Below are positions 49,635 to 64,000 of a stretch of 64,000 nt of DNA, piece by piece. Each line of letters starts with the position of its first letter. Position 1 is the first letter of the stretch. The position numbers and the translations under genes were made by a program. Source of the DNA: Glandiceps talaboti (lineage: Eukaryota > Hemichordata > Enteropneusta > Spengelidae); assembly GCF_964340395.1 (NCBI RefSeq), contig NC_135558.1:19738871-19802870 (forward strand). The letters are read 5' to 3'. The notes beneath the pieces are model-generated. The model worked only from the letters and a program-made list of their open reading frames with translations, ran no database searches and had not been told where the DNA came from.

Positions 49635-50549
49635 TTATGGTTCATATTGTAAGTTAAGATCATTTTTACCAAGCTCCGCGAGTATTGTCTCATTAAACAA
49701 TTCATTTTGGGCAACAGTAAATTTCTGTTTCCAGCTTCCAACCTCACCTTTGCGTAGAAAACTGCCTTTCATATCCCAATATCCTTCAGACTGCGAACCC
49801 CACATACCACTTGGAACGTTGACTGCCTGCATCGACTTAAAGCTACACTGCTGGACAACTTTATTCATTTTATCGTCGGTCAAAGGGCGGTTTAAAAATG
49901 TCGCCACAGTGGAGAGACAGGATTTTAAATCGTTCCTCATGTCTTCGAAGTATAGGTGGAGGACGTTGTCTCGTAGACCATACTTATGCCACCCTAAGAC
50001 GTGTTGTAGCCAGGGCCCAAACCAAACTTTGCCTTCAATAAATGATGGTACCCATTCTTCCCAGGTAAGTTCCATTTTCGTATACTCCATGTTTTTCAGA
50101 TAAGAATAATAGGACACACACACGTCTTTCGGATTTCTGGTAACGTTTACGATTTTACATTGCTTCTCCCCGGCTTTCCAAACATTAGGATAGCACTGTG
50201 GTGGTAAGTGACACGCCATTAATCGTGGCGATGGTACGTCTTTCATTGATGTCTTGATAGACTTGACGTGTTGATGATAAAAACCAGTGAGGACGTCTAA
50301 ATTCTCGTTCACGACGCTTAACTCGGCACACCTTCCTGAGCCTGGTACCTTCCAGTTCAGGTCATCATACATTGACATGAGTGCATATGTCATCCACGTT
50401 GTTCCTGACTTGGGGAAGGTGGAAACGACTACGTCAGAATCTCGAACGTCCCAAATTGTGTCAATATGACGTTCACGAAGAGCCTTGACGTCCATAACAC
50501 TTTCTATATGATAGCAGCCTTCATATGACATCGCTAGCCATTCTGCCAT
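49635..50549 (-). CDS. SULT-like: Cytosolic sulfotransferase (SULT family), intronless
   Basis: Transfers the sulfuryl group from PAPS to hydroxyl or amine acceptors of small molecules. I chose the second ATG (50549, MAEWLAMSYEG), because it places the PAPS loop about 45 residues in and gives 304 residues, normal for the family; the frame is open back to an ATG at 50636 (333 residues). In order, numbered from that longer start: 5'-phosphosulfate loop STFPKSGTTW (72-81), a catalytic-type His in ACHLPP (H143), 3'-phosphate site VTRNPKDVCVSYY (165-177), and C-terminal RKGEVGSWKQKF (295-306). All key residues are present. The usual KTH before the His is ACH. The whole CDS is one exon. It lies divergent to the methyltransferase gene at 51.4 kb. 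The acceptor substrate cannot be inferred. Confidence 0.93.
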   Translation of the reverse strand: MAEWLAMSYEGCYHIESVMDVKALRERHIDTIWDVRDSDVVVSTFPKSGTTWMTYALMSMYDDLNWKVPGSGRCAELSVVNENLDVLTGFYHQHVKSIKTSMKDVPSPRLMACHLPPQCYPNVWKAGEKQCKIVNVTRNPKDVCVSYYSYLKNMEYTKMELTWEEWVPSFIEGKVWFGPWLQHVLGWHKYGLRDNVLHLYFEDMRNDLKSCLSTVATFLNRPLTDDKMNKVVQQCSFKSMQAVNVPSGMWGSQSEGYWDMKGSFLRKGEVGSWKQKFTVAQNELFNETILAELGKNDLNLQYEP

Positions 50550-51437
50550 ATTCAAGTTATCTCCCACTGCCACTCGAATGGTAGAACAATGCTCTAGCCT
50601 GCAATTTGCATATTCCGAGCAGACCACTCTTACCATTCAAAGTCCTGCCCTTTCGATGAACCCGCTCAACATTTGACCCACTTGCACGGAGTTATCGTAT
50701 TTTTAACAAAGACTGCTGTTCCACTATTCGATCACACTGCATGCACGCTGCGATCGAAGAATGAAAGCAGTTGTGACTTTTCGTCACAAATTGATTACAT
50801 GTTCCAATAAACTTGATTCGTATGGCAATGTTTATTCTTGACTCGAAATCGTCTGATGATTTTTTAACGTACGTCGCAGTTAACCAATTGTAACATTACT
50901 TGCAGTGAATTTATACGATCATATAAAACGAGTGTATTTTTACCCCTACCATAAACGTTTGGCTTATACACGTCTATATTATCGTTATTATCGCCATGTT
51001 ATTGTATTCTCATAGAACCATAGACAGTAACTTTTTACTGTCTAAAAACATCTTTGCATTGATGGAAGAAACCGAGGTTCCCGCGGGACCGACCAGAAAC
51101 AACGATCTGATTAATATTCAGGTACCCCATTCACACTGAATTCATTATGCCATGTCAAGCGGTAATGAGTTTCTCATGAATATGCACGGTAACAAAGCGG
51201 TAAAACCGCCGGCGGTACGGGAGGGTTTGGATTCCCGCGGGAACCGCCTACGGTACCGGCAACTTGAAATGGACTTCTTCCATTAAAGCCTGTTACAACG
51301 AGAAACAAAAATATATATTCATTTGTCGCCCATACAATTTCGAGTACAATAAACGCTTGACCAACCTCTGGTATGAACAAATACAACGATCAACGATCAA
51401 CGTTCAATGCTGTAAGTACGTTAAACGTCAACTTAAC
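50550..51437. promoter_or_regulatory. Divergent intergenic region between sulfotransferase and methyltransferase
   Basis: About 0.89 kb separate two genes pointing apart, so both promoters should lie here. Part of it is transposon-derived: 50930-51032 matches an arm of the hAT foldback element at 14.09-14.18 kb. The segment 51057-51295 has TCCCGCGGGA palindromes at both sides and 'atggaagaa'/'ttcttccat' in inverted orientation, so it is another small foldback. No TATA box is convincing. Confidence 0.4.
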
Positions 51438-51591
51438 ATGAACAGTGTTTATTGGAATAATTACTCACAGAATGGAGAATTACAACATAATATTGGTACC
51501 GAATTGCTGACATTGTTAGAAGATAACTGGACATTTGACGATGTTATTCTAGATGTTGGCTGTGGCACTGGAGAACGGACGAAGTTGATAG
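51438..51591 (+). pseudogene. SAM-dependent methyltransferase first coding exon, cut by the LTR element
   Basis: From the ATG at 51438 the frame reads MNSVYWNNYSQNGELQHNIG and then the methyltransferase motif I, ILDVGCGTGE, the glycine-rich SAM-binding loop. The N-terminus resembles juvenile-hormone-acid-methyltransferase-like proteins of invertebrates (small class I methyltransferases). After 51 codons plus one base the frame runs into the LTR and stops four codons on. The remaining exon and gene should continue past the right LTR, outside the window. On this chromosome copy the gene is disrupted; the free allele may exist in the population. Confidence 0.75.
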
Positions 51592-52305
51592 TGTTACGAG
51601 TCACAAAATAAACATTTAAGATTTGATAATTCCTCTGTTGACAAAAGACACAAGTGATAAGGTCACATTGATTAATGAGACAGAGCCGGGTCAAGTAATG
51701 TTATTCTATCCTAATGAGTAGAGGTCACATGTCATCTTAGAGTGATAAATTGTGTCCCAATTGAATCAACAGCTGTCTAGCTAGAATTATTTAGCACGGG
51801 TCAATAAACTGGCTATTGCTGAATTGAATTAATTATATTAATAAACATTTACTAAATAAGGTTAAGAGAGAATCTTTTGTTGTAAACAATTTGTTTGTTA
51901 ACCATATTTGTAATACGGAATGAACGATGTTTTAAATAAAAATGTTGATGACGTATGCGTTTGAAGTAGCTGTGGAATTCGCTATTCCGGAGACTAAGTC
52001 AGTTGGCGACTGAAGTGAAGAGCGATACCAGCGGGTTCTTGAGAAATTGTGAGCTGAGCTGAAATTACTTGAAAGAACTTTGACAATTAACTGTAATTGA
52101 CTGGAACTGAGGCGAATAGCTCCCTATGCTGCAAATCGTATAAGTCATTCAACACAAAAGTAATATTTGTGTCCTTGTGAGTTTCTTCTTTTTACAGAGC
52201 ACTGTTTCGTGAAATCGGTACCTCTCAGATTGCTATCCGGGCGAGTCCAAAGTTTACCGCTGAATACGGGTCAACGTTGCAGCTACCAAATTCAGCGTTG
52301 TAACA
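51592..52305 (+). repeat. 5' LTR, 714 bp
   Basis: It starts TGTTACGAG and ends GCGTTGTAACA, so the ends are a 5'-TGTTAC...GTAACA-3' imperfect inverted repeat with TG...CA termini. AATAAA is at 51803-51808, with further AATAAA copies at about 51839 and 51937 that could serve polyadenylation. A strong splice-acceptor-like 'tttcttctttttacag' ends at 52197. No TATA box is clear. The right boundary is set from the inverted terminus and the adjacent PBS. Confidence 0.92.
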
Positions 52306-52306
52306 C

Positions 52307-52324
52307 TGGTGTAAAATCCGGGCT
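52307..52324 (+). other. Primer binding site
   Basis: TGGTGTAAAATCCGGGCT begins one base after the LTR end. TGG pairs with the CCA tail of a tRNA, as expected for a PBS. I cannot name the tRNA without a search. Confidence 0.6.
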
Positions 52325-52370
52325 GGACAGTGCTATTCAAAGAATCAACAGGTAAAAAAGTACAATCGCA

Positions 52371-52380
52371 AAACGTAAGT
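52371..52380 (+). promoter_or_regulatory. Candidate leader splice donor
   Basis: AAAC/GTAAGT in the leader, 18 bp before the gag ATG, fits a strong 5' splice site. It would suit making spliced mRNAs for ORF3 and the envelope. Inferred only. Confidence 0.35.
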
Positions 52381-52397
52381 ACTTTATAAGACATTAT

Positions 52398-53639
52398 ATG
52401 CTACTACGATCGGGCCGTATACTGAGACAGCCAGACATACCACAAATTCCTCTTGCACAAATGGCAAACTTGGAGAACAATTTACAGATTGATCAAGACA
52501 TAATACCAATTGTACCAATTGATCACAACCTACAACCAAATATTCCAATTGCACAAAATTTGGAACAAAATAATCAAGCTGACCCTATTCATAACATTCA
52601 AAATCTAATACAAGATGTGAATAACAGAATAGGAAGAGTCCAGATAAGTGATGAGAAACCGCCTTACTATTATGGCAAAGAAGATGAATCACCAGAACGA
52701 TGGTTGAATAAATTTGATGCATTTGCTGTATTAAAGAACTTAAATGACGATCAAAAAGTTCAATACTTTATATTATTGATAAGAGATGTTGCTGAAAGAT
52801 GGTATGTAGACTTGGACGAAAATCAGGCACAAAATTGGAATGAATTGCGGCCTTTATTTATTGCAAGATTTCATCGTATTCAACCAAGATGGCTCGTTGA
52901 TCAGCAATTAAGTTTGATAAAACAACGACAAAATGAATCTGTGGATGACTATTCCAGCCGATTACGGGAAAAATGTGCTAAAGCAATGCGCACGGCCCCA
53001 GAAATTTTAAGTTTATTTTTACAGGGTTTGCGTCATGAAATCAAGATAGCAACTTTATCCCGGGAACCAAATGACTTTGAAAATGCGTTTTCAGCGGCCA
53101 AGACAGCAGAAATCATATCTCAACTACCAAACCACGACAGCCAGCTGACATCCAGAAACACAACATTGAAGTTGCCCAAGAACAGGATTGATCAAGAATT
53201 GCATGACGACATGGTGGAGCTCACTACACAATTACGACAAAAAAATGAATTGCTCACTCGTCGAAATGAAGAATTGCAACAACAGGTACAGTCTCAAACA
53301 TTTTCTGACAATCGGGCGGGATATTACCCTCAGACACAAAGAAATCTTCAATTTCGTCAAAATCAGGGCAATTATTTTGCAGTAGGCCGGCCAAATTTCA
53401 ATACAAACAGGCCTATGTATGACCGTCAAAATAATTTTGATAAAAATCGCCCAAGATATGGCGGAAGAGAAATTATGTCTGGCAGACAAATATGTAGAAA
53501 TTGTAATCGTTCAGGTCATATGGCCCCATCCTGCCCAGAAAGAAATAACAGAGGTTGTTATTCATGTGGTCAAATAGGTCACATAGCTAGAAATTGTCCA
53601 AGACCTACCTATAGTCGTTTTTATTCAAAAAACGATTAA
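52398..53639 (+). CDS. gag: gag polyprotein
   Basis: 413 codons from the first ATG after the leader (a second ATG, MANLENN, is 21 codons on). Residues about 90-230 form a retrotransposon capsid (gag) domain, with the WLNKFDAFA and AERWYVDLDE blocks and a QQLSLIKQRQNESVDDY block. Two CCHC zinc knuckles follow: C366 to C379 (CRNCNRSGHMAPSC) and C387 to C400 (CYSCGQIGHIARNC). They package the RNA genome. The region around 275-300 is a short charged coiled coil. The gag frame ends right after the slippery A AAA AAC, so pol is read by -1 frameshifting. Confidence 0.93.
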   Translation: MLLRSGRILRQPDIPQIPLAQMANLENNLQIDQDIIPIVPIDHNLQPNIPIAQNLEQNNQADPIHNIQNLIQDVNNRIGRVQISDEKPPYYYGKEDESPERWLNKFDAFAVLKNLNDDQKVQYFILLIRDVAERWYVDLDENQAQNWNELRPLFIARFHRIQPRWLVDQQLSLIKQRQNESVDDYSSRLREKCAKAMRTAPEILSLFLQGLRHEIKIATLSREPNDFENAFSAAKTAEIISQLPNHDSQLTSRNTTLKLPKNRIDQELHDDMVELTTQLRQKNELLTRRNEELQQQVQSQTFSDNRAGYYPQTQRNLQFRQNQGNYFAVGRPNFNTNRPMYDRQNNFDKNRPRYGGREIMSGRQICRNCNRSGHMAPSCPERNNRGCYSCGQIGHIARNCPRPTYSRFYSKND

Positions 53640-53685
53640 GGAGTGTGAGAAATATCAAATCCAAAGAGCCTAATATGTCTCACAC
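53627..53685 (+). promoter_or_regulatory. Programmed -1 ribosomal frameshift signal
   Basis: A AAA AAC (53627-53633) lies in the gag frame exactly as X XXY YYZ, one codon before the gag stop at 53637. A 9-nt spacer leads to GTGTGAGA (53643-53650), which pairs perfectly with TCTCACAC (53678-53685) around a 27-nt loop. The pol frame (the -1 frame) is open from 53615. Heptamer, spacer, stem and frame all fit the standard retroviral signal. A pseudoknot partner was not identified. Confidence 0.85.
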
Positions 53686-56600
53686 GCCCAAATTAAATTC
53701 TGTAAAATCTGCTGATTTAAAGGTACAATCTAACAATTTGATCACTATTAAAATTTTCAATACTGCAATTTCGGCTTTGATCGACTCTGGAGCTACAATA
53801 AACGTAGTTTCCACAAAACTATTTGAAAAAATTCCACAGCTAAAAAAGTTCAAAATTAAAAGACCTAAATACAAATGTATAGAATTACCAAACAATCAGC
53901 AGATTCCTATTCAAGGCTATGTAAAAATTCCAATACGTATTGAAAATCAACTAATCAATGTTCCAGTGCATTTGGTTAAGGACATAGATAGAGATTTGAT
54001 CTTAGGAATGGAATTTTTAGAGCAGCACAAAGCAATAATTGATTTTGCACACAAGAAATTATTCATCCATGCCAATGCAGTCTTGAGACCAGCTAAAAAA
54101 TATGTCATACCCCCTAGGTGTGAATGCATAATTTCGGCTAAGCTAAGGGGCTCATTTCCGAATGGACTAATAGGAACCACTACCAACATGACGTCACTAC
54201 ATTACTTAGGCATTCAAGTTGCACGAGTATTAGCATCTACTTATGAGGGTTCAGTTCCAATCAGGTTGATCAACACATCTAACAATGAGGCCATATTAGG
54301 TAGGCATATTCGATTGGGCACTTTCAGACCACTCCCAGACGGAACCACTTTACATGACTTTGACATGACGGACACATATTTAAATAATAAGACACACCCT
54401 TCTCAGACAAATCCCTCTTTAGAACGGGAAGAATTTCATTCATTATTTGACTTCACTGGGCAATGCTCTAACTTGACAAATAGCCAAATTAATGACTTAC
54501 AAGAAGTACTATGGAGAAATAGGCGAGCATTCGTAGATAATTCAAATACTTTGGGTTATTGTGATATTATTAAACATACTATTGATTTAGAACCTAATGC
54601 CAAAGTGAAACCAAAGGCACCCTATAGAGTATCCCCTGACAAGCGTGAGGAAATTTCGAGACAAACAAATGACCTTTTAAGACAAAATATAATTCGACGT
54701 AGCAAATCCCCATTTAGTGCACCTGTACTTTTGGTCAAAAAACCTTCAGGCTCATGGCGTCTTGTGATTGACTATCGTGAATTAAATAAGGTGACAATAA
54801 TTTACAATCATCCGCTCCCAAATATTTCAGATAGTTTAGAAATGATCGGGGCCCAAAGTCCCAAATATTTTTCTACACTTGATATGACTAGTGGATTTTG
54901 GCAAATTGCCCTTGATGAAAAAGATTCACATAAGACGGCATTTGTTACTCATGATGGAAAGTTTGAGTTCAAGACACTTCCACAAGGATTACGTAACTCA
55001 AGTAGTAGCTTTCAACGCAGTTTAGAATTTATTTTAAATCAATTACAATATAAAATTTGCATATCATATATAGACGATATATTAATATTTGCAACAACGT
55101 TTCGACAACACCTTCAAAACCTTGACATTGTTCTAGGTAGGTTAATAAATGCAAATTTGAAATTAAGCCCGCGAAAATGTATATTTGGAAAAAGGGAAGT
55201 TAAATTCCTAGGTCATATCTTGAACGAAAATGGCATCTCAACTGACCCAAAAAAGGTCGACGCAATATTAAAATTTCCCGTACCAACGAAAGTATCACAA
55301 CTTCAATCGTTCTTAGGTTGCGCAGGATATTACAGACGATTTATTCATAACTATTCAAAAATAGCAAATCCTCTACACAAATTGCTTGCAAAGAGTGCAA
55401 AATTCATATGGACTAATGACTGTCAACAGGCTTTTGATACGTTAAAAAAGGCGTTGACATCAAAACCAATATTGGCGTTCCCACGTTTTAATGAGGAATT
55501 TCTATTATATACGGACGCGTCAGCATACAGTGTAGGATTCATTTTAGCCCAAGTTCAAGATGGCATAGAAAGAGTCATTTCTTATGGTGGTCGTACTCTA
55601 AATCCAGCACAACGAAATTACACCTGTACAGAACGTGAAGGTCTCGCGGTAATACATGCATTAACACAATGTGATATTTACTTGAGAGGAAACAAATTCA
55701 CAATCATTACAGATCATGCAAATTTGATCTACCTATTCAAAATGAAAACTCCAAGCGGCAGGCTAGCCAGGTGGGTACTCAAAGTACAAGGTTACAATTA
55801 CGACATTCTTTTCAGACCTGGAGCAAAAATTCCACATGCGGACAGTTTGTCGCGCCGCGAATATCCACCTGAAAAATATCAAAACTCCGAAATTACACCG
55901 ACAGACACCGACAATACTAATTCAGATGACATAAATTATACACACAATCAGTCACAGCTAACTATGAATGAAATTTCTAACATTCCAGAGATAGCCAATT
56001 TACAACTCAACACGCAAGAAGATATCCTTACAGACATCAGACATCTATACGACTCGTCTGAAACTGATATCATGACTGACCAGCTGTGTAATGCATCCAC
56101 TCAATCAATCGACTCCAATGACACACTAACCGATCATAGTGAGATTGATAATACACATACTGGCATTAATAAACTCTACAATTTACAACGTCAGGACAAA
56201 CACTTATTACCAATGATTAATTATTTAACCAATGATGGCGAGTTACCTTCAGACTCAAAGCATGCACAGAAGATAATACAAAGCAGTGACAATTTTACCA
56301 TTTTGAATGGTATATTATATCATTACTGGTCCCCTACAGGTAAGTCAGCTAAAGCTCATAACTGTATTCGACAGTTAGTAATTCCGAAATCCTTACAACT
56401 ATACATATTAAGGAGGGTTCATGATGACGTCACAGCAGGACACTTGGGTACCTCACGAACGTTACAGGCTATCAGATTACGTTATTATTGGGACACCTTA
56501 ATCAAAGACGTGACAGTTTACGTGGCATCCTGTGTCTTCTGTCACTCACGGAAACGAGGTATTCGATATCGTCAAAAATTACTTCCTATACCAGTAAATG

Positions 56601-58006
56601 GTTTATTTGATAAGATAGGAATTGATTTTGTGGGAAAGTTGCCCACTACAAAATCTGGAAATAGTTATATTTTGGTAATCACAGAATACCTTACCAAATT
56701 TTGTTGGGCTTTCCCAACAGCAAATTGCAAAGCCGAAACAGTTTCTCGAATATTGTTCGAACACATCTTCTGTCAATTTGGATTTCCAAATTCATTGTTG
56801 TCAGACCAAGGTTCTTCCTTTATGTCTCAAATTGTAACGGAATTATGTCGATATTTTGATGTTATTAAGCAACGCAGCTCACCTTATATGCCTACTACGA
56901 ACGGAAGTGTGGAATGCTTAAACAAATCAATAATAAATATGCTTAGCATATATGTAAACTGTCAAAGTTCAGACTGGGACACATATCTCCAATCTGTTCT
57001 ATTTGCATATAGGGCAACCCCACATGAAGCAACTGGAATCACACCATTCTGTGCCCTATTTGGCACAGAACCACGATTACCAGTTGATGCTGAAATTTTG
57101 CCAAGATTGGGTAAATCACGCAATATTCAGTATCATTTAGATGAATTAGCTCATGCTAGAAATCTTGCAATATCACTCGCAAAACAAAATATCCAGAAAG
57201 CTCAACACAAAATGAAAACATATTTTGATGCAAAAAAAGCACATGATCACAGATTCAAAGTGGGTGATGTCGTATATCTACATCACCCAGCAGTCAAATT
57301 GGGTCGAACACCTAAATTTCACCACCCTTTTCGTGGGCCATTTCGAATAATCGAACAAGTTTCACCAGTAAATTTCAAGTTGGAATACATAACAGGTGAT
57401 AAGAAATATCCTAAGCTAATCCATGCAAATCGTTTAAAGCATGCACGCTTAAGACCTCCACAATTCCTAAGTGACAACAATAATACAACTACATTAACAG
57501 CCAGCGAAGCTCCTCTCAGGGATAATAGCAACTCTGCCACTAACAACAATAATATCACATCAAACACTGATAAAAATAATAGAAGACAAACAACTATGAC
57601 GGACTACCACATGAACTCAGAAACTGAATATTATTCGTGTTCGGAAACAACTTCAAATCAACACACCAACAGTCCTAGAGGACAATCGTGGAGAAAAAAT
57701 ATCCGCAATAGAGCTGAGTTAAGACGGGAAAAACGGTATACCCACCAAAATCAGACTGATGACAGTTCTGATGCAATTACAAATACATTAACCGCTGAAA
57801 ATGATCAAACGTTTTATAACGTTCAAAAAATCATCCGTGGTAGGTACAAAAATGGTAAACTACAGTATTTAATTAAATGGGAAGGTTATTCATCAGAGTT
57901 TAATAGTTGGGAACCTGTTGAAAACTTGAATCAATTAGCACTAAACATTCTCAAGGACCATCCTGTTTTTATATCAGGTTCACGAACTTATAAACGTCAT
58001 CTTTAA
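53645..58006 (+). CDS. pol: pol polyprotein: protease, RT, RNase H, integrase, chromodomain
   Basis: 1454 codons, counted here from 53645; the frame is open from 53615 and lacks an early ATG, in line with frameshift entry. Aspartic protease LIDSGATINVVS (D47). Reverse transcriptase from about 330: D413 in LDMTSGFWQI, FKTLPQGLRNS, and YIDD 475-478. RNase H D624 in LLYTDASA. Integrase zinc finger H926, H933, C963, C966, then D994, D1054 and E1090 with 35 residues between the last two (DD35E). A basic GPF/Y-like segment follows (FRGPFRII). The C-terminal chromodomain, about 1389-1440, has the aromatic positions in FYNVQKI, YLIKWEGY and NSWEP. Chromodomains in integrases usually steer insertion to methylated-histone chromatin. 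All catalytic residues are present and no stop interrupts it. Confidence 0.95.
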   Translation: MRNIKSKEPNMSHTPKLNSVKSADLKVQSNNLITIKIFNTAISALIDSGATINVVSTKLFEKIPQLKKFKIKRPKYKCIELPNNQQIPIQGYVKIPIRIENQLINVPVHLVKDIDRDLILGMEFLEQHKAIIDFAHKKLFIHANAVLRPAKKYVIPPRCECIISAKLRGSFPNGLIGTTTNMTSLHYLGIQVARVLASTYEGSVPIRLINTSNNEAILGRHIRLGTFRPLPDGTTLHDFDMTDTYLNNKTHPSQTNPSLEREEFHSLFDFTGQCSNLTNSQINDLQEVLWRNRRAFVDNSNTLGYCDIIKHTIDLEPNAKVKPKAPYRVSPDKREEISRQTNDLLRQNIIRRSKSPFSAPVLLVKKPSGSWRLVIDYRELNKVTIIYNHPLPNISDSLEMIGAQSPKYFSTLDMTSGFWQIALDEKDSHKTAFVTHDGKFEFKTLPQGLRNSSSSFQRSLEFILNQLQYKICISYIDDILIFATTFRQHLQNLDIVLGRLINANLKLSPRKCIFGKREVKFLGHILNENGISTDPKKVDAILKFPVPTKVSQLQSFLGCAGYYRRFIHNYSKIANPLHKLLAKSAKFIWTNDCQQAFDTLKKALTSKPILAFPRFNEEFLLYTDASAYSVGFILAQVQDGIERVISYGGRTLNPAQRNYTCTEREGLAVIHALTQCDIYLRGNKFTIITDHANLIYLFKMKTPSGRLARWVLKVQGYNYDILFRPGAKIPHADSLSRREYPPEKYQNSEITPTDTDNTNSDDINYTHNQSQLTMNEISNIPEIANLQLNTQEDILTDIRHLYDSSETDIMTDQLCNASTQSIDSNDTLTDHSEIDNTHTGINKLYNLQRQDKHLLPMINYLTNDGELPSDSKHAQKIIQSSDNFTILNGILYHYWSPTGKSAKAHNCIRQLVIPKSLQLYILRRVHDDVTAGHLGTSRTLQAIRLRYYWDTLIKDVTVYVASCVFCHSRKRGIRYRQKLLPIPVNGLFDKIGIDFVGKLPTTKSGNSYILVITEYLTKFCWAFPTANCKAETVSRILFEHIFCQFGFPNSLLSDQGSSFMSQIVTELCRYFDVIKQRSSPYMPTTNGSVECLNKSIINMLSIYVNCQSSDWDTYLQSVLFAYRATPHEATGITPFCALFGTEPRLPVDAEILPRLGKSRNIQYHLDELAHARNLAISLAKQNIQKAQHKMKTYFDAKKAHDHRFKVGDVVYLHHPAVKLGRTPKFHHPFRGPFRIIEQVSPVNFKLEYITGDKKYPKLIHANRLKHARLRPPQFLSDNNNTTTLTASEAPLRDNSNSATNNNNITSNTDKNNRRQTTMTDYHMNSETEYYSCSETTSNQHTNSPRGQSWRKNIRNRAELRREKRYTHQNQTDDSSDAITNTLTAENDQTFYNVQKIIRGRYKNGKLQYLIKWEGYSSEFNSWEPVENLNQLALNILKDHPVFISGSRTYKRHL

Positions 58007-58569
58007 GTATACACTTAAGGTCACTCAAAGACAATGACACAGTAAACCACCTGTTTGATCACTGCAATCCTTTACAACAAATATTACCATATAGCATGTA
58101 TAAATTTCTTATATTTGGTCATCAAATATCAAAAAATGTTTACCGTATGAGTCAATCACATTATTTAAAGTTCATGTTTAAGAGTGGTCATTTAGAAAAC
58201 CCTCATGATTGATTCTGCGAGTTATACCTAATAAGGAATTAGATATAAATACAGCTGTGATTGTGTGAATAATTGAACAGTCTGGCCAGACGATGTGTGT
58301 TAGGGGCCACAAGGGTACTTCTTAAGTGACCACTCAAAAAACAACTAGTTTTAATCACAAGAAATAGGTCCTCCAATTGTACTTTCTCATTTGTCACTGG
58401 TGTCACAAAACAATGTCACATTTCATTACCATATTGGGCTACAAATTTTTGACTAATGTACGGTAAATATTTTATACATGTCACTAGTGTTCCAACTTGC
58501 AATACACTTCCATTTCGATAACATTACTTTGAATGAACACTTCCTGTTTAAATATACTGAGGTTTCAAA
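58007..58569 (+). other. Non-coding spacer between pol and ORF3
   Basis: About 560 bp without a gene. It presumably holds the splice acceptor for a subgenomic mRNA; 'tttaaatatactgag' just before the ORF3 ATG is one weak candidate. Confidence 0.4.
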
Positions 58570-59655
58570 ATGACTATTTGGATTAACGAGGAACACGGAA
58601 TATGGGCAATGGAAGCTCTGGATTGTAATTGTCTTCTACGAGAGGATTCATTTTATGAAGCTTTACGTCAACATTGCGACCCAGCTGATTTAGAATTCTT
58701 ACGTTTACAACGTATAGCTGCAACTCCTGCAAATGAAGACTACACACCCATTTTCGAGGATAGTGTTGAAATCAGCCCACGGAATATTAAGTATCTTTAT
58801 AATATGGATAAAGTAACATATCAAGGTATTATCAATGACCACGCAAATTTAGTCGAATATGCTTTAAAAAATTATAATTTACATTTCCCTTCTAATCCTT
58901 ATCTTCATTGGAAGACATATGTCACCGCCACGGCTATAGAGCACTCCAAGCTAAATAGTTTGAAGGTTATCTTAGCCTATTTTTCAAAAAATAATACTCC
59001 TTGGCATTCGCTGAGAATTGACGTGCTTTGTTATGCATTATTCATGTGCTATAATTATCGAAGTTTAGGTACTTTTGAAAATCATGATGAAAAATTCCGT
59101 AAAGCACATGAAGTATTAATATATGTCATGTCATGTGTGCAGGCGCGCACAAAATTATCACAGGCTCTTTTCAATTCCATGCTTAAAGCTGAATCATTAC
59201 AATCATATTTTGAACCCCTAATTCCATATTTTAACCAACCAGATGACTTGTTTGCTTTATGTGTCTTTAAGATAAGAGACTGTATTTCTTTAGGAAGAAA
59301 TCCAAAGTTTTATGGAGGTACCATCAAATTGTCACAATCAAAACGTGACGCCGGCCGTCTTGTATCACAATTACCTCTCCCCAAAAGAATCCAACAAGCC
59401 ATATTAGATTCACATGATATTTTTACCGCTACAACTTTTCCTACAAATCCGGATGAACCACATCGTTACACTTATAAGTTCTACAATAGCCAATGTGGCA
59501 GATTCACTGAATATGAAAATTCTGAAGATCATGGTGAAAATTGTGATTGCTTAAATTTAACATCTTTGGACAACATATATGTTACACCATATTATAACGC
59601 ATATTTATTTCCACCAATTGATGACACATATTTATTTCCTCACAAAGGACAATAA
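58570..59655 (+). CDS. ORF3: unrecognised 361-residue protein of the retroelement
   Basis: I do not recognise this protein. It starts MTIWINEEHGIWAMEALDCN, is acidic-to-neutral, and has no signal peptide, clear transmembrane segment, zinc knuckle or catalytic motif. Residues about 85-150 alternate amphipathic helices (DHANLVEYALKNYN, ATAIEHSKLNSLKVILAYFS, 'VLCYALFMCYNY') with spacing that faintly recalls ankyrin-type repeats; this is a guess. The C-terminal third is rich in Tyr, Asn, Asp and Cys (a CGRFTEYENSEDHGENCDC segment). Codon use and AT content match gag, pol and env, and the frame is intact, so it is likely a real accessory gene of the element and not a chance frame. Possible roles are open: regulator, counter-defence factor or env partner. 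Confidence 0.75.
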   Translation: MTIWINEEHGIWAMEALDCNCLLREDSFYEALRQHCDPADLEFLRLQRIAATPANEDYTPIFEDSVEISPRNIKYLYNMDKVTYQGIINDHANLVEYALKNYNLHFPSNPYLHWKTYVTATAIEHSKLNSLKVILAYFSKNNTPWHSLRIDVLCYALFMCYNYRSLGTFENHDEKFRKAHEVLIYVMSCVQARTKLSQALFNSMLKAESLQSYFEPLIPYFNQPDDLFALCVFKIRDCISLGRNPKFYGGTIKLSQSKRDAGRLVSQLPLPKRIQQAILDSHDIFTATTFPTNPDEPHRYTYKFYNSQCGRFTEYENSEDHGENCDCLNLTSLDNIYVTPYYNAYLFPPIDDTYLFPHKGQ

Positions 59656-59872
59656 ACACTATTGACTAGAATTTCGAACATCTCTCAAATTCTTCGTATA
59701 CCTCACATAAATTGTTATCTCCATATCCGTCATGCTCTGACCTTATATGGTAAAATAACTTCTGACTATCCTCAGCCTCGCTTTCAAAATCACACAAGTA
59801 AATATTTCTTAAATATCTTACGTGGTCACATCATTAAATGATAACATTGATTAGCTCACTTCATCGATCACC
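59656..59872 (+). other. Spacer between ORF3 and env
   Basis: About 217 bp, non-coding. It ends in a strong Kozak context (CACCATGG) at the env start. Confidence 0.5.
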
Positions 59873-62425
59873 ATGGACCGGAGAACATTTCTGTTTACAA
59901 TGCTAAAGGCAACAGTCTTCTTCTATGTCATGCTTTTTCCATTATTATATGCAAAAAGTGACTCGGATTATGACTTCATGGCCACAGATGATGTACAACG
60001 TCTAAATTATGGTGTGATTTTCGAAAAGGTAGCAGTCATTGAAGCTTCTGCTAGCAGTTGGTCACTCACTATAGCGGTTCCATGGCTGGATATACACGAG
60101 ATTGTGAAAGTTACATCAACATTTCAGCATAAACAGGTGTGTCTTTTAAATATTACTGATGCTATGTGTGATGAATTCTCTGCTTCCATCAAGACGTTAA
60201 ACTATCGCATAAAGTACAAGCTGAAAGAGTTACGTCATTACTTAAATGAACTAGATCGACTTTCATCATTCAAGTATGGAAATAAGGGATTTGATAATGG
60301 TTATAATTCAGAACGAAAGACCAGGTCAATTTTGCCAATAATTGGGCAAATTTCTAAAACTCTATTTGGAACAGCAACAACGAAAGATGTCTCGATTTTA
60401 GCACGTCATATTTCATCAGTTGAACAAGAACTAGCAAATCAACGTACAGGATTACGTCATTTTAGTGCTGACCTGAGTTCCGTACTCAAGATTACAAATC
60501 GACGAATTGACAATTTGTGGTCTTCTGTCAATAACACTTTTTCAACGGTAGAACAATTGACTCTTGCAGTAGCAGACATTGAACGACTCCGATTACAAAC
60601 ACAGCGACAGGACCATAGTTATCATCTTTCAAATGATCAATTTCATCGTTATATGTTACTTTTAAATGCTCTGGATGATAGATCACGTACATTGGATGTT
60701 TTAATAGCCAAAGCTACAGAACGTTTAATTGGTATGCAAACCTTGCTGGAAGGCTATTTACCACCAGAATTTGTCTCTTCCAAACTTTTAGAAAATTCAC
60801 TGCAAAAGTTACAAGACAACTTTCAGAAAAAATATTCACAATATCATTTGTGTCACGAAACCGCATCATATTATCACCGTCAAAAAGGAGCTACTTTTTA
60901 TAGAAACGGCCACAATATTTACATCAATATTCCAGTACCTTTATGTCGTCATTCATTGATTTTCGATGTATTTAAGGTAATTCATTTGCCAATTCCTTCC
61001 TTTCCATCAGTAGCACAAAATACAAACGGAACTGCGATTTCACAATCTGTTACTGTCTTAAATAACTTGCCAAATTATTTTGCAATACAGCGAAATGGAG
61101 ATTATTTTCTAGAAATGTCAACAGCTGAATTTCAAACATGTCAAGGTTTATCCATTCTTATTTGTCAACCACTTACAATTTTGAAACCAGACTTACCATC
61201 ATGTGCTCGTGCAGTATTATTGAATCAACATTCTAAAGTCTTGAAATGGTGTAATCCTCAAATAATTGTTCGTCACACAGGCATTCAAAGAGCCCAGGTG
61301 CTGCGAAATTCGCAAGTATTAATTCAGGGTTATTCATCAGATTGGCATCTTTCTTGTAATGATGCAATATTGCAGAAAATTGAAAAGTGTCATTTTTGTG
61401 TGATCACGATACCTTGCGGTTGTTTACTATTCTCAAAAAAATACTACATAGATACCTTGGGAAATAGTTGCCAACAAGATCATGATATCGTATATAGTCA
61501 TACTTTGAATATTCCGGTTCTTATGTCTTTATATAGTACAGCCCTTCCTACTTTGAAATTATCTACCTTAAGCGACAATCCTACATCAGTTCAATTGCCA
61601 GATGTACAAATATTAGAGACTGAGTGGAAACAAACTTTAAGCACAGAAAACGATATCAAAATTGATTTGAATCGTGCTGCCACTATGCTTCGTGATAATT
61701 CCAAAGTCTTTCTTACTCCTATGGATCAATTTCGGCAGGAGAACATAAACTTTAATGATGATCCATCAGTATTTACAATGTTTCCAAATTCAATTTGGGT
61801 GACCCTAGCATTATCGTGTGTTAACTTGGCATTGTCCATATATCTGATGTGGAAAATGAGAAATTTTAGTATAGCGTTGCAAATCTTATTGGCCAAAAGA
61901 GTTGAAGCGCAGGAAATTTCTTGGTTCATATCTACAAACCCATCCCCTACAAAACCATTTGAACCTCCACATAACACCGATTATATTAAATATATTGTTG
62001 AGGCAATATGTATTTTTGCTCTCTGTATCATATTTATGATTACTTATAAGTACTGCCTACGTGCCATTAAACAATATTGGCACAAACTGATGGTTAAGAC
62101 AACGGCTTCTGAGGCCAGTCCAATTGATCATGAAATGCATGTCATCCCGATATTGCCTACTATTTCAGATCATCCTATGTGTGATTCTAGTAAGGACATG
62201 ACCTCTTTGCCTAGTTGCACAATTCATGACAACCCTTTACAGGGCCCCTTCATTCATGAAGATGCTAGACTCGTAAACAGTAGATTAAGTGGTGTGACGA
62301 CAGACATCCACGCTAGCAACGGTAACGACATTAGCCGACAGACTAGTGCAACTGCGACTCCACTTCAACCTCAAAACTCTATTCCGAAATGTGACCCCTT
62401 GAACTTGACATGGTTTACAATTTAA
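59873..62425 (+). CDS. env: Envelope-like membrane glycoprotein
   Basis: 850 residues from an ATG in CACCATGG context. A hydrophobic signal peptide occupies about residues 5-27. Furin-type RKTR at 148-151 is followed by a hydrophobic SILPIIGQISKTLFGTAT segment (152-169) and then a long heptad-rich region (about 172-260). This order (cleavage site, fusion-peptide-like segment, coiled coil) matches the F-like envelopes of errantiviruses and baculovirus F relatives. N-glycosylation sites (e.g. NITD at 93) and conserved Cys are in the ectodomain. Two membrane segments lie at 641-660 and 707-725, followed by a polar tail of about 125 residues; a single segment is usual for F-like envelopes. It would mediate membrane fusion if functional. 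Homology is inferred from layout, not from a search. Confidence 0.8.
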   Translation: MDRRTFLFTMLKATVFFYVMLFPLLYAKSDSDYDFMATDDVQRLNYGVIFEKVAVIEASASSWSLTIAVPWLDIHEIVKVTSTFQHKQVCLLNITDAMCDEFSASIKTLNYRIKYKLKELRHYLNELDRLSSFKYGNKGFDNGYNSERKTRSILPIIGQISKTLFGTATTKDVSILARHISSVEQELANQRTGLRHFSADLSSVLKITNRRIDNLWSSVNNTFSTVEQLTLAVADIERLRLQTQRQDHSYHLSNDQFHRYMLLLNALDDRSRTLDVLIAKATERLIGMQTLLEGYLPPEFVSSKLLENSLQKLQDNFQKKYSQYHLCHETASYYHRQKGATFYRNGHNIYINIPVPLCRHSLIFDVFKVIHLPIPSFPSVAQNTNGTAISQSVTVLNNLPNYFAIQRNGDYFLEMSTAEFQTCQGLSILICQPLTILKPDLPSCARAVLLNQHSKVLKWCNPQIIVRHTGIQRAQVLRNSQVLIQGYSSDWHLSCNDAILQKIEKCHFCVITIPCGCLLFSKKYYIDTLGNSCQQDHDIVYSHTLNIPVLMSLYSTALPTLKLSTLSDNPTSVQLPDVQILETEWKQTLSTENDIKIDLNRAATMLRDNSKVFLTPMDQFRQENINFNDDPSVFTMFPNSIWVTLALSCVNLALSIYLMWKMRNFSIALQILLAKRVEAQEISWFISTNPSPTKPFEPPHNTDYIKYIVEAICIFALCIIFMITYKYCLRAIKQYWHKLMVKTTASEASPIDHEMHVIPILPTISDHPMCDSSKDMTSLPSCTIHDNPLQGPFIHEDARLVNSRLSGVTTDIHASNGNDISRQTSATATPLQPQNSIPKCDPLNLTWFTI

Positions 62426-63056
62426 GGAACAATCGCTGGAATTTTGATGGTTAACAGTTATCAAATTTAATGAACAATTAATTGTTTTAATGGTACCTAT
62501 TTTATTTTGACGTCTAATTAGATTTAATTAAGGACTTTTAGTCTCTGAACATTGAGATAACTTTCACACTGAAAATTGAGAGACAGTTGTGATCTCAATA
62601 CTTTAACTTTTAAATGTCTTTAAGGAACAAAGTTGTTGAGCTACTTTCAACTTTCACGTCATCATATTGACGTTTCTTTTCAGTTCCTCAATATTATTAT
62701 ATGAAGACACAAACTTTTGAACTCTTAACATTTTCAACTCTAATTGTTGAAATGAATTTGAACTCTTAGACTCTCGGACAGTTTTGAACTTTTACAAGTT
62801 CACATGAAACATTTTGACGATTTAAATTTTCAATTAAGAACAATTTTGCAACTCTTTTTGCCTTTTATAATTAAGAATTATTTAAGATAATTAAGTTAAT
62901 TAAGCTAAATAAGTGAATTTTGTGAACAAATTTTGATCGATATTACAAAACCTTTGTCTCACGACATCTCAACAAACCCTTTTACCATTTCTTTGGCATT
63001 TAAGCTATCTTCACATTTCCGACTTTCCAAATTTTTACGGATTATCAGGTTTTTAC

Positions 63057-63103
<47 letters not shown>

Positions 63104-63310
63104 CCTTCTTTACTTTATATTTATCAAACTTTACTTGACTTGATGTATGATATAAACTATACGGGCTCGTCTGTCCTCAATAATCTCTTTGACAGTATGT
63201 GACCTTCATCTTTCGGTACCATCACTTTCGCTCTTCCCAATATTTTGTAACCTAAATTAGCTTCTCTTACAATTAGGCTGGTTACGTGTTTTGGGGACAA
63301 AACATATTTT
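62426..63310 (+). other. 3' non-coding region of the element with a 42-A tract
   Basis: About 880 bp without a gene, with many 'ttgaact', 'aattaag' and 'ttttgaac' motifs. A pure A run is at 63060-63101. It is long for a Ty3/Gypsy element and lies between env and the polypurine tract. Confidence 0.6.
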
Positions 63311-63324
63311 GACGGGGGGAATGG
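63311..63324 (+). other. Polypurine tract
   Basis: GACGGGGGGAATGG directly precedes the 3' LTR, as expected for plus-strand priming. Confidence 0.8.
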
Positions 63325-64000
63325 TGTTACGAGTCACAAAATAAACATTTAAGATTTGATAATTCCTCTGTTGACAAAAGACACAAGTGATAAGGTCACA
63401 TTGATTAATGAGACAGAGCCGGGTCAAGTAATGTTATTCTATCCTAATGAGTAGAGGTCACATGTCATCTTAGAGTGATAAATTGTGTCCCAATTGAATC
63501 AACAGCTGTCTAGCTAGAATTATTTAGCACGGGTCAATAAACTGGCTATTGCTGAATTGAATTAATTATATTAATAAACATTTACTAAATAAGGTTAAGA
63601 GAGAATCTTTTGTTGTAAACAATTTGTTTGTTAACCATATTTGTAATACGGAATGAACGATGTTTTAAATAAAAATGTTGATGACGTATGCGTTTGAAGT
63701 AGCTGTGGAATTCGCTATTCCGGAGACTAAGTCAGTTGGCGACTGAAGTGAAGAGCGATACCAGCGGGTTCTTGAGAAATTGTGAGCTGAGCTGAAATTA
63801 CTTGAAAGAACTTTGACAATTAACTGTAATTGACTGGAACTGAGGCGAATAGCTCCCTATGCTGCAAATCGTATAAGTCATTCAACACAAAAGTAATATT
63901 TGTGTCCTTGTGAGTTTCTTCTTTTTACAGAGCACTGTTTCGTGAAATCGGTACCTCTCAGATTGCTATCCGGGCGAGTCCAAAGTTTACCGCTGAATAC
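63325..64000 (+). repeat. 3' LTR, cut by the window end
   Basis: 676 bp, aligned base for base with 51592-52267 at a constant offset of 11733 with no difference that I see. Another 38 bp should lie beyond the window. Confidence 0.95.

Follow-up and report, generated by a model that had tools for sequence, protein, structure and literature searches.

Ty3/Gypsy elements with a chromodomain are, by a rule of thumb, elements without an envelope gene (env), and those with env are elements without a chromodomain. What kind of element carries both? We analyzed a stretch of 64,000 nucleotides (the window) from the enteropneust hemichordate Glandiceps talaboti, in which positions 51592-64000 hold a Ty3/Gypsy provirus that breaks this rule: it comprises gag, pol with a chromodomain, a third open reading frame (ORF3) and an F-type env, bounded by long terminal repeats (LTRs). 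A preliminary description of this DNA had listed these five parts, with a 361-codon ORF3, an 850-codon env and apparently identical LTRs, and had proposed a young element in an invertebrate host. All parts were found in our analysis, and the host is indeed an invertebrate. We consider it fairly probable that the whole represents an endogenous retrovirus of the Metaviridae (Ty3/Gypsy) that was inserted recently, is probably still mobile and is equipped with a chromodomain, an F-type envelope and ORF3. The element is a new variant of env-carrying Ty3/Gypsy, and its main interest lies in the pairing of chromodomain and env across a clade and in ORF3, a candidate Vif-like gene.

The chromodomain maps to 57815..57934 (window coordinates, + strand unless stated otherwise), corresponding to pol residues 1391-1430 at the C-terminus of integrase, where chromoviruses carry theirs. 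It is HP1-like and matches Pfam Chromo with 43.3 bits (E 3.5e-11) as well as 39 distinct sequences of solved structures at E<=1e-6, with LHP1 being the best and HP1/CBX proteins coming next. Residues Y, W and Y occupy what we take to be the methyl-lysine aromatic cage positions of HP1, and the domain may thus bind methylated histone H3. In the mechanism we propose, it would read H3K9-methylated chromatin and direct integration to such sites. A chromodomain is present in all five families, A-E, of such elements in the Glandiceps genome (by Pfam in A and E, by alignment or reading in B, C and D); in family C, two of the three cage residues are F.

We placed the window pol in a tree of reverse transcriptase (RT), RNase H and integrase sequences (RT-RH-IN), as proposed in the preliminary description. 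The RT domain (RVT_1, 54734..55222, pol residues 364-526) is recognized by Pfam at E 1.4e-33. The main tree has 49 rows, namely 47 of the 120 pol hits listed, Ty3 from the PDB and the window pol, and was calculated with LG+G4 without a mixture. Six of the 120 hits were excluded from the first tree for short coverage, among them P0013, which was restored in a 32-row tree. We take four reference rows to be chromoviruses, on the grounds that each has a chromodomain and clusters close to Ty3. The window pol is split from Ty3 and these four proteins at 100/100, a separation kept in a quick 116-row mixture-model tree (Shimodaira-Hasegawa-like approximate likelihood ratio test 99). The approximately unbiased (AU) test rejects a grouping of the window pol and P0012 with the four chromodomain proteins (p 3.9e-11), and also a grouping of the window pol, P0012 and P0020 without the nearest kin of P0020 (p 3.1e-5). 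The RT-RH-IN region of the element is thus found outside the chromovirus branch, in a clade of 11 rows (95/99).

Within this clade, a Chromo match follows integrase in six rows (the window, P0012, P0018, P0020, P0023 and P0028), with the scores of P0018, P0023 and P0028 lying below the gathering score. As P0012 is itself a Glandiceps family, this leaves four of nine rows outside Glandiceps. No Chromo match was found in the nine other non-chromovirus rows scanned (P0015, P0022, P0033, P0035, P0040, P0041, P0091, P0098 and P0103). From these sequence comparisons, the RT clade seems to have the chromodomain as a family trait, acquired or kept apart from chromoviruses; a single origin with losses and several gains are both possible. 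Several observations weigh against this reading: the 116-row tree leaves the 11-row clade unresolved; P0063 drops out in the 32-row tree, in which the remaining group is supported at 87/99; P0033 and P0035 end close to integrase, and their missing chromodomain therefore means little; and a chromo-like motif is recognized by pattern in P0108, a long-branch row that is not among the clade rows tested. P0018 is a single frame of 2439 residues on a contig of the European Nucleotide Archive (ENA) that contains gag, pol, a weak Chromo match of 20.4 bits and an envelope. This envelope matches the rhabdovirus-G fusion domain at 19.4 bits, below the threshold of 22, and it thus seems that pol of this kind also occurs together with a different envelope. 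The separate lineage suggested earlier holds in that the RT-RH-IN region lies outside the chromovirus branch, whereas its supposed singularity does not: Chromo matches recur in the clade, P0018 combines one with an apparently different envelope, and the Glandiceps genome itself houses chromodomain families in which no env was found.

The env gene (59873..62425, 850 codons) encodes a protein with a cleavage-site-like RKTR motif at residues 148-151, followed by a hydrophobic stretch, and with two C-terminal hydrophobic helices that are apparent from its sequence and its predicted structure. Nine non-identical homologues were found at E-values from 4.8e-18 to 2.5e-46, among them proteins from Haliotis and Mya. 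In an alignment, an R-x-NYG-xx-F start, a basic cleavage-like site with its hydrophobic stretch and a cysteine-rich middle are common to the window env and seven other proteins. A Pfam scan with the full-length window env gave no Baculo_F match. The domain was found in P0002, a Glandiceps gene model containing the N-terminal half of env (25.5 bits versus a gathering score of 24.1), and, at 42-78 bits, in five of seven further env homologues scanned, three of these five being named mollusc proteins; the remaining two (P0004 and P0011) had no Baculo_F match. By way of P0002 and the homologues, the gene downstream of pol can thus be assigned to the F-type envelopes, as expected for an env-carrying Ty3/Gypsy element. 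A structure model of env is of low confidence (49.6), and its Foldseek matches, which include baculovirus F, chuvirus glycoproteins and respiratory syncytial virus F (TM-scores 0.16-0.28 by query length, 26 best matches), are only supportive. None of the viral contigs was matched by env or pol queries. The envelope would allow passage of particles between cells.

Two database entries with env sequence deserve mention. P0002, at C7:8326059, is an NCBI gene model that joins the N-terminal 43% of env (100% identity) to betaine-homocysteine S-methyltransferase, which may stem from faulty gene prediction or from provirus transcripts being spliced into a host gene. P0001 is an ENA contig of 3402 bases with a near-identical full-length env (two residues different by eye) and could be a transcript or come from another assembly of the same species.

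We searched the Glandiceps genome (590 Mb, 47 contigs, with the window on contig C11) for copies of the same layout. The env and pol counts are lower bounds, as scoring covered 53 of 184 candidates for env and 48 of 864 for pol. ORF3 has 41 matches, some being pieces of single copies: 14, including the window, are open, 360-361 residues long and 99-100% identical; one is a broken near-copy; and the remainder comprises six rows of a family at 58% identity (family B) and decayed pieces. For env, there are at least 54 matches, with 15 in the family of the window element (family A; one of them interrupted by a stop and two incomplete), six in family B at 74-75% identity, and the rest older or partial. 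The integrase C-terminus, the chromodomain, ORF3 and the N-terminal half of env occur in this order at all 20 ORF3 loci fetched (15 of family A, including the window, and five of family B, on 10 contigs, some with frame breaks). Loss of ORF3 and env from all other copies, which would have pointed to an accident in this one, is thus not what the genome contains.

The LTRs bear on the age of the insertion. The 5' LTR (51592..52305) has 714 bases, TGTTAC...GTAACA, its length being set from the LTR ends of ten other copies. The 3' LTR (63325..64000) comprises the first 676 of 714 bases before the window ends; the final 38 bases and the target duplication would lie beyond, where the genome record reads N. 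Over the 676 bases inside the window, the two LTRs show no difference. Family A has 14 other copies; LTR ends were compared in ten, and eight of these have LTR pairs identical over 714/714 bases, in line with the young age proposed at the outset; one further pair aligns at 704/704 with different first bases, and another has one difference in 712. Matching 4-base target duplications flank nine of the ten copies, the tenth being unreadable. Together with protease-RT-RNase H-integrase order and LTRs in the window copy, these duplications in the other copies are as expected for Ty3/Gypsy. Judged from its LTRs and its copies, the window element is recently inserted and multi-copy, and it is probably still mobile.

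We next consider how env and ORF3 are distributed over the Glandiceps families. Their topology is (E,((A,B),(C,D))), with support of 100/100 for the whole group, 99/97 for A-D, and 100/100 each for A+B and C+D; P0012 belongs to family E (100% to its own loci) and P0013 to family C (99%). Families A and B both have env and ORF3. In family E, env is found at 29-34% identity in two deletion copies, and the ORF3 region is missing from both. A third, decayed ORF3-env family has ORF3 at 38-39% and env at 61-83% identity and a recognizable chromodomain, and at several older env loci (e.g. L065, L067 and L072; partial or decayed, with short flanks) no ORF3 match adjoins env. Families C and D, with at least 14 and 12 copies (L077 and L078), resemble the window element in their close pol (62% and 57%), their chromodomain and their host genome. 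They differ from the window element in that their gag-pol frames stay open for longer (up to 1792 and 1772 codons). One copy of each was searched over the sequence following pol (2.8 kb in C, 2.7 kb in D), and neither ORF3 nor env was matched there at an E-value below 0.04. Inspected by eye, the match tables place no env match (of 54) closer than 15 kb to any of the 26 places of families C and D. The simplest reading of these sequences is that env is ancestral in this genome and was then lost in the ancestor of C and D, and env and ORF3 look lost in these two multi-copy families. It counts against this reading that the absence is based on a single tail per family, and that the env search covers the scored fraction of candidates given above (53 of 184). 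One genome thus allows env-bearing families to be compared, in their integration sites and their spread, with sister families in which no env was found.

These data bear on three other explanations of the locus. That a chance chimera or an assembly artefact affects the window copy alone is scarcely conceivable: the layout is common to 20 of 20 loci, 19 of them elsewhere, on 10 contigs, and the genome has at least 15 env rows of family A and at least six of family B. The window element is thus not a chance chimera, because its integrase-chromodomain-ORF3-env order recurs at every locus fetched. A canonical chromovirus that had recently captured an envelope and ORF3 would account for the HP1-like chromodomain with its cage residues, but we regard this as very improbable given the 100/100 separation from Ty3 and the four chromodomain proteins and the result of the AU test. 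In addition, env is common to families A and B and to the deeper family E, and its capture is therefore not recent.

A much stronger competitor is an ordinary errantivirus-like element of an already described metazoan clade, whose chromodomain would be known if seldom mentioned, and in which only ORF3 would be new. We give this explanation a substantial, if less than even, chance. The recurrence of Chromo matches across the clade speaks for it, and the novelty of the RT clade is uncertain. On the other hand, titles and abstract openings in the literature searched never coupled a chromodomain with env. They did not mention a SOCS-box gene in a retrotransposon either, and a search pairing Glandiceps with retrotransposon found no paper.

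Errantiviruses have a gag-pol-env layout, an F-type envelope, TG...CA LTR ends and 4-base target duplications, and the Glandiceps element shares all of these, its envelope being assigned through Baculo_F. It differs from them in its integrase chromodomain and in the additional gene between pol and env, and our tree contains no named errantivirus reference. Chary and Hayashi (eLife, 2025) reportedly treat metazoan envelope-carrying elements. Env-carrying gypsy elements occur in many metazoans according to the excerpted texts of two papers (PMC12859917, PMC13172572), and the env-bearing lineages studied in a third fall in the gypsy/gypsy clade, as stated in its excerpt (PMC12992720). From chromoviruses, the element differs in its RT-RH-IN position outside their branch and in the presence of env; the excerpt of a 2009 study describes chromoviruses as a separate branch that is missing from basal deuterostomes on the data of that year (PMC2774666). 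P0018 is alike in its RT clade, in the Chromo match after integrase and in having an envelope, there within the same polyprotein, and differs in the sub-threshold rhabdovirus-G match in place of Baculo_F. LTR elements of bdelloid rotifers also have an additional ORF downstream of pol; unlike the gene described here, their ORF3s encode GDSL, DEDDy, env, coiled-coil or membrane proteins, and in the excerpted account no lineage has a chromodomain (PMC5408684).

What might ORF3 do? The gene (58570..59655, 361 codons) has no significant whole-protein match in Pfam, PHROG or PDB, and no homologue was found at E 0.01 among 5.8 billion proteins (684 candidates). Its ratio of nonsynonymous to synonymous divergence (dN/dS) is 0.10-0.13 when the window is compared with five loci of family B, with dS near saturation, and by this measure ORF3 is under purifying selection. 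It is also the most diverged segment between families A and B (58% identity versus 67-83% for the other segments compared). An exchange of ORF3 between families was considered, as Nei-Gojobori dS seemed higher there (2.6-3.1 versus 0.86-1.05), and was dropped after counting four-fold sites (33/58 versus 277/620, Fisher p 0.097). Ankyrin repeats were likewise rejected: a plain ankyrin consensus scored no better than shuffles, and a second one, which did score better, was written after seeing ORF3 and is not counted. A single-sequence structure model was uninformative (predicted local distance difference test 35.1).

A SOCS-box-like segment is found at 59236..59412 (residues 223-281), with a putative BC box at residues 227-235 and a putative Cullin5 box at 265-274. 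The motif P-x-x-L-x-x-L-C-x-x-K-I-R-x-C-I-x-L is identical to ASB7 (PDB) at 10 of 18 positions, and V-S-Q-L-P-L-P-K-R-I comes after it, beyond a spacer. The BC box and the Cullin5-box-like motif occur in the right order in both families A and B. Pfam SOCS_box is matched at E 0.02 by the window segment, at E 0.0091 by the family B segment and at E 0.04 by one full-length ORF3. In a profile comparison with hhalign, ORF3 aligns to 37 of 40 template columns of three ASB SOCS boxes (P 6.6e-4; controls, P 0.25 for env and 0.043 for pol). Family A ORF3 is equalled by 3-4 of 5000 shuffles against the ASB9 and ASB7 boxes. The joint BC/Cullin5 motif turned up at a frequency of 6.5e-5 among 200,000 shuffles and was absent from all 131 control proteins, the patterns having been chosen after seeing ORF3.

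A Vif-like SOCS-box adaptor is, in our judgment, the likeliest single function of ORF3, with a chance that falls a little short of even. It would bridge a host protein to Elongin B/C-Cullin5 through the SOCS box and thus bring about a Vif-like removal of a host defence. Much weighs against this assignment. Family B ORF3 reaches only 54-56 of 5000 shuffles, its Cullin5 box reads LQLP rather than LPLP, and no signal is seen with the ASB8 box (257 and 1337 of 5000 shuffles). The best of the 131 control proteins outscores ORF3 for ASB8 and ASB9; only in family A, and with ASB7, does ORF3 score higher. The SOCS_box scores (15.6-16.7 bits for the two segments, 14.6 for the full-length protein) are below the gathering score of 23.5, their alignments span the Cullin5-box half only, and one of six full-length ORF3 proteins is matched at all. 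The hhalign probability is 27%, PDB searches with ORF3, its profile and the SOCS segment gave nothing significant, and a comparison of 13 loci with the window copy shows no G-to-A excess indicative of hypermutation. We see about an even chance that ORF3 is not a SOCS-box protein and serves another accessory or structural role, such as that of a matrix protein, a nuclear-export protein or a silencing suppressor, in keeping with the weak and partial SOCS scores and the missing whole-protein matches. The ordered boxes in both families and the profile comparison with its controls argue against these alternatives and for the SOCS-box adaptor.

ORF3 resembles the SOCS box (BC box plus Cullin5 box) of Vif and the ASB/SOCS proteins, and like ORF3, Vif is a retroviral accessory gene. 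ORF3 differs in that its spacer between the boxes is longer than in the ASB chains compared, about 80 residues follow the box, and the Pfam score is not significant. HIV-1 Vif recruits Elongin B/C-Cullin5 via a SOCS-box-like domain, as the excerpted source has it (PMC3843819). If the SOCS box is real, Vif-type counter-defence would have evolved in invertebrate retroelements as well, and this would point to a hemichordate restriction factor not yet known. We hold it tentatively, at somewhat less than an even chance, that the element is a non-lentiviral Ty3/Gypsy retrovirus which combines an Elongin-Cullin5-hijacking SOCS-box adaptor, a heterochromatin-reading integrase and an envelope, its Vif-like strategy having arisen independently in an acorn worm.

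The remaining features of the provirus are as follows. The gag gene (52398..53639) encodes Retrotrans_gag and two CCHC zinc knuckles (Pfam). The pol frame (53615..58006, open from 53615) lies at -1 relative to gag and encodes protease, RT, RNase H, integrase and the chromodomain (Pfam). A slippery heptamer A_AAA_AAC at 53627..53633, in frame with gag, is separated from the gag stop (53637-53639) by three bases; the 127 bases 3' of it fold as a stem-loop (z -2.30; four of 200 shuffles equally stable). Upstream of gag, a splice-donor-like GTAAGT (52375..52380), recognized by motif only, is a candidate donor for the env and ORF3 mRNAs. The polypurine tract (63311..63324) precedes the 3' LTR, and the identical 14 bases do so in nine of ten other copies, the tenth having one additional G. 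A TGG primer-binding-site-like candidate is located immediately 3' of the 5' LTR (52307-52323); no tRNA match is assigned, and none was searched for.

Outside the provirus, an open frame (51264-51611) ending in VILDVGCGTGERTKLI is interrupted by the 5' LTR. The sequence VILDVGCGTGERTKLI resembles motif I of S-adenosylmethionine-dependent methyltransferases, and the frame matches Pfam Methyltransf_31 at E 0.14 only; the insertion may split a host exon. A sulfotransferase gene or exon is located further upstream on the - strand (49635-50636; Pfam Sulfotransfer_1, E 2.5e-57).

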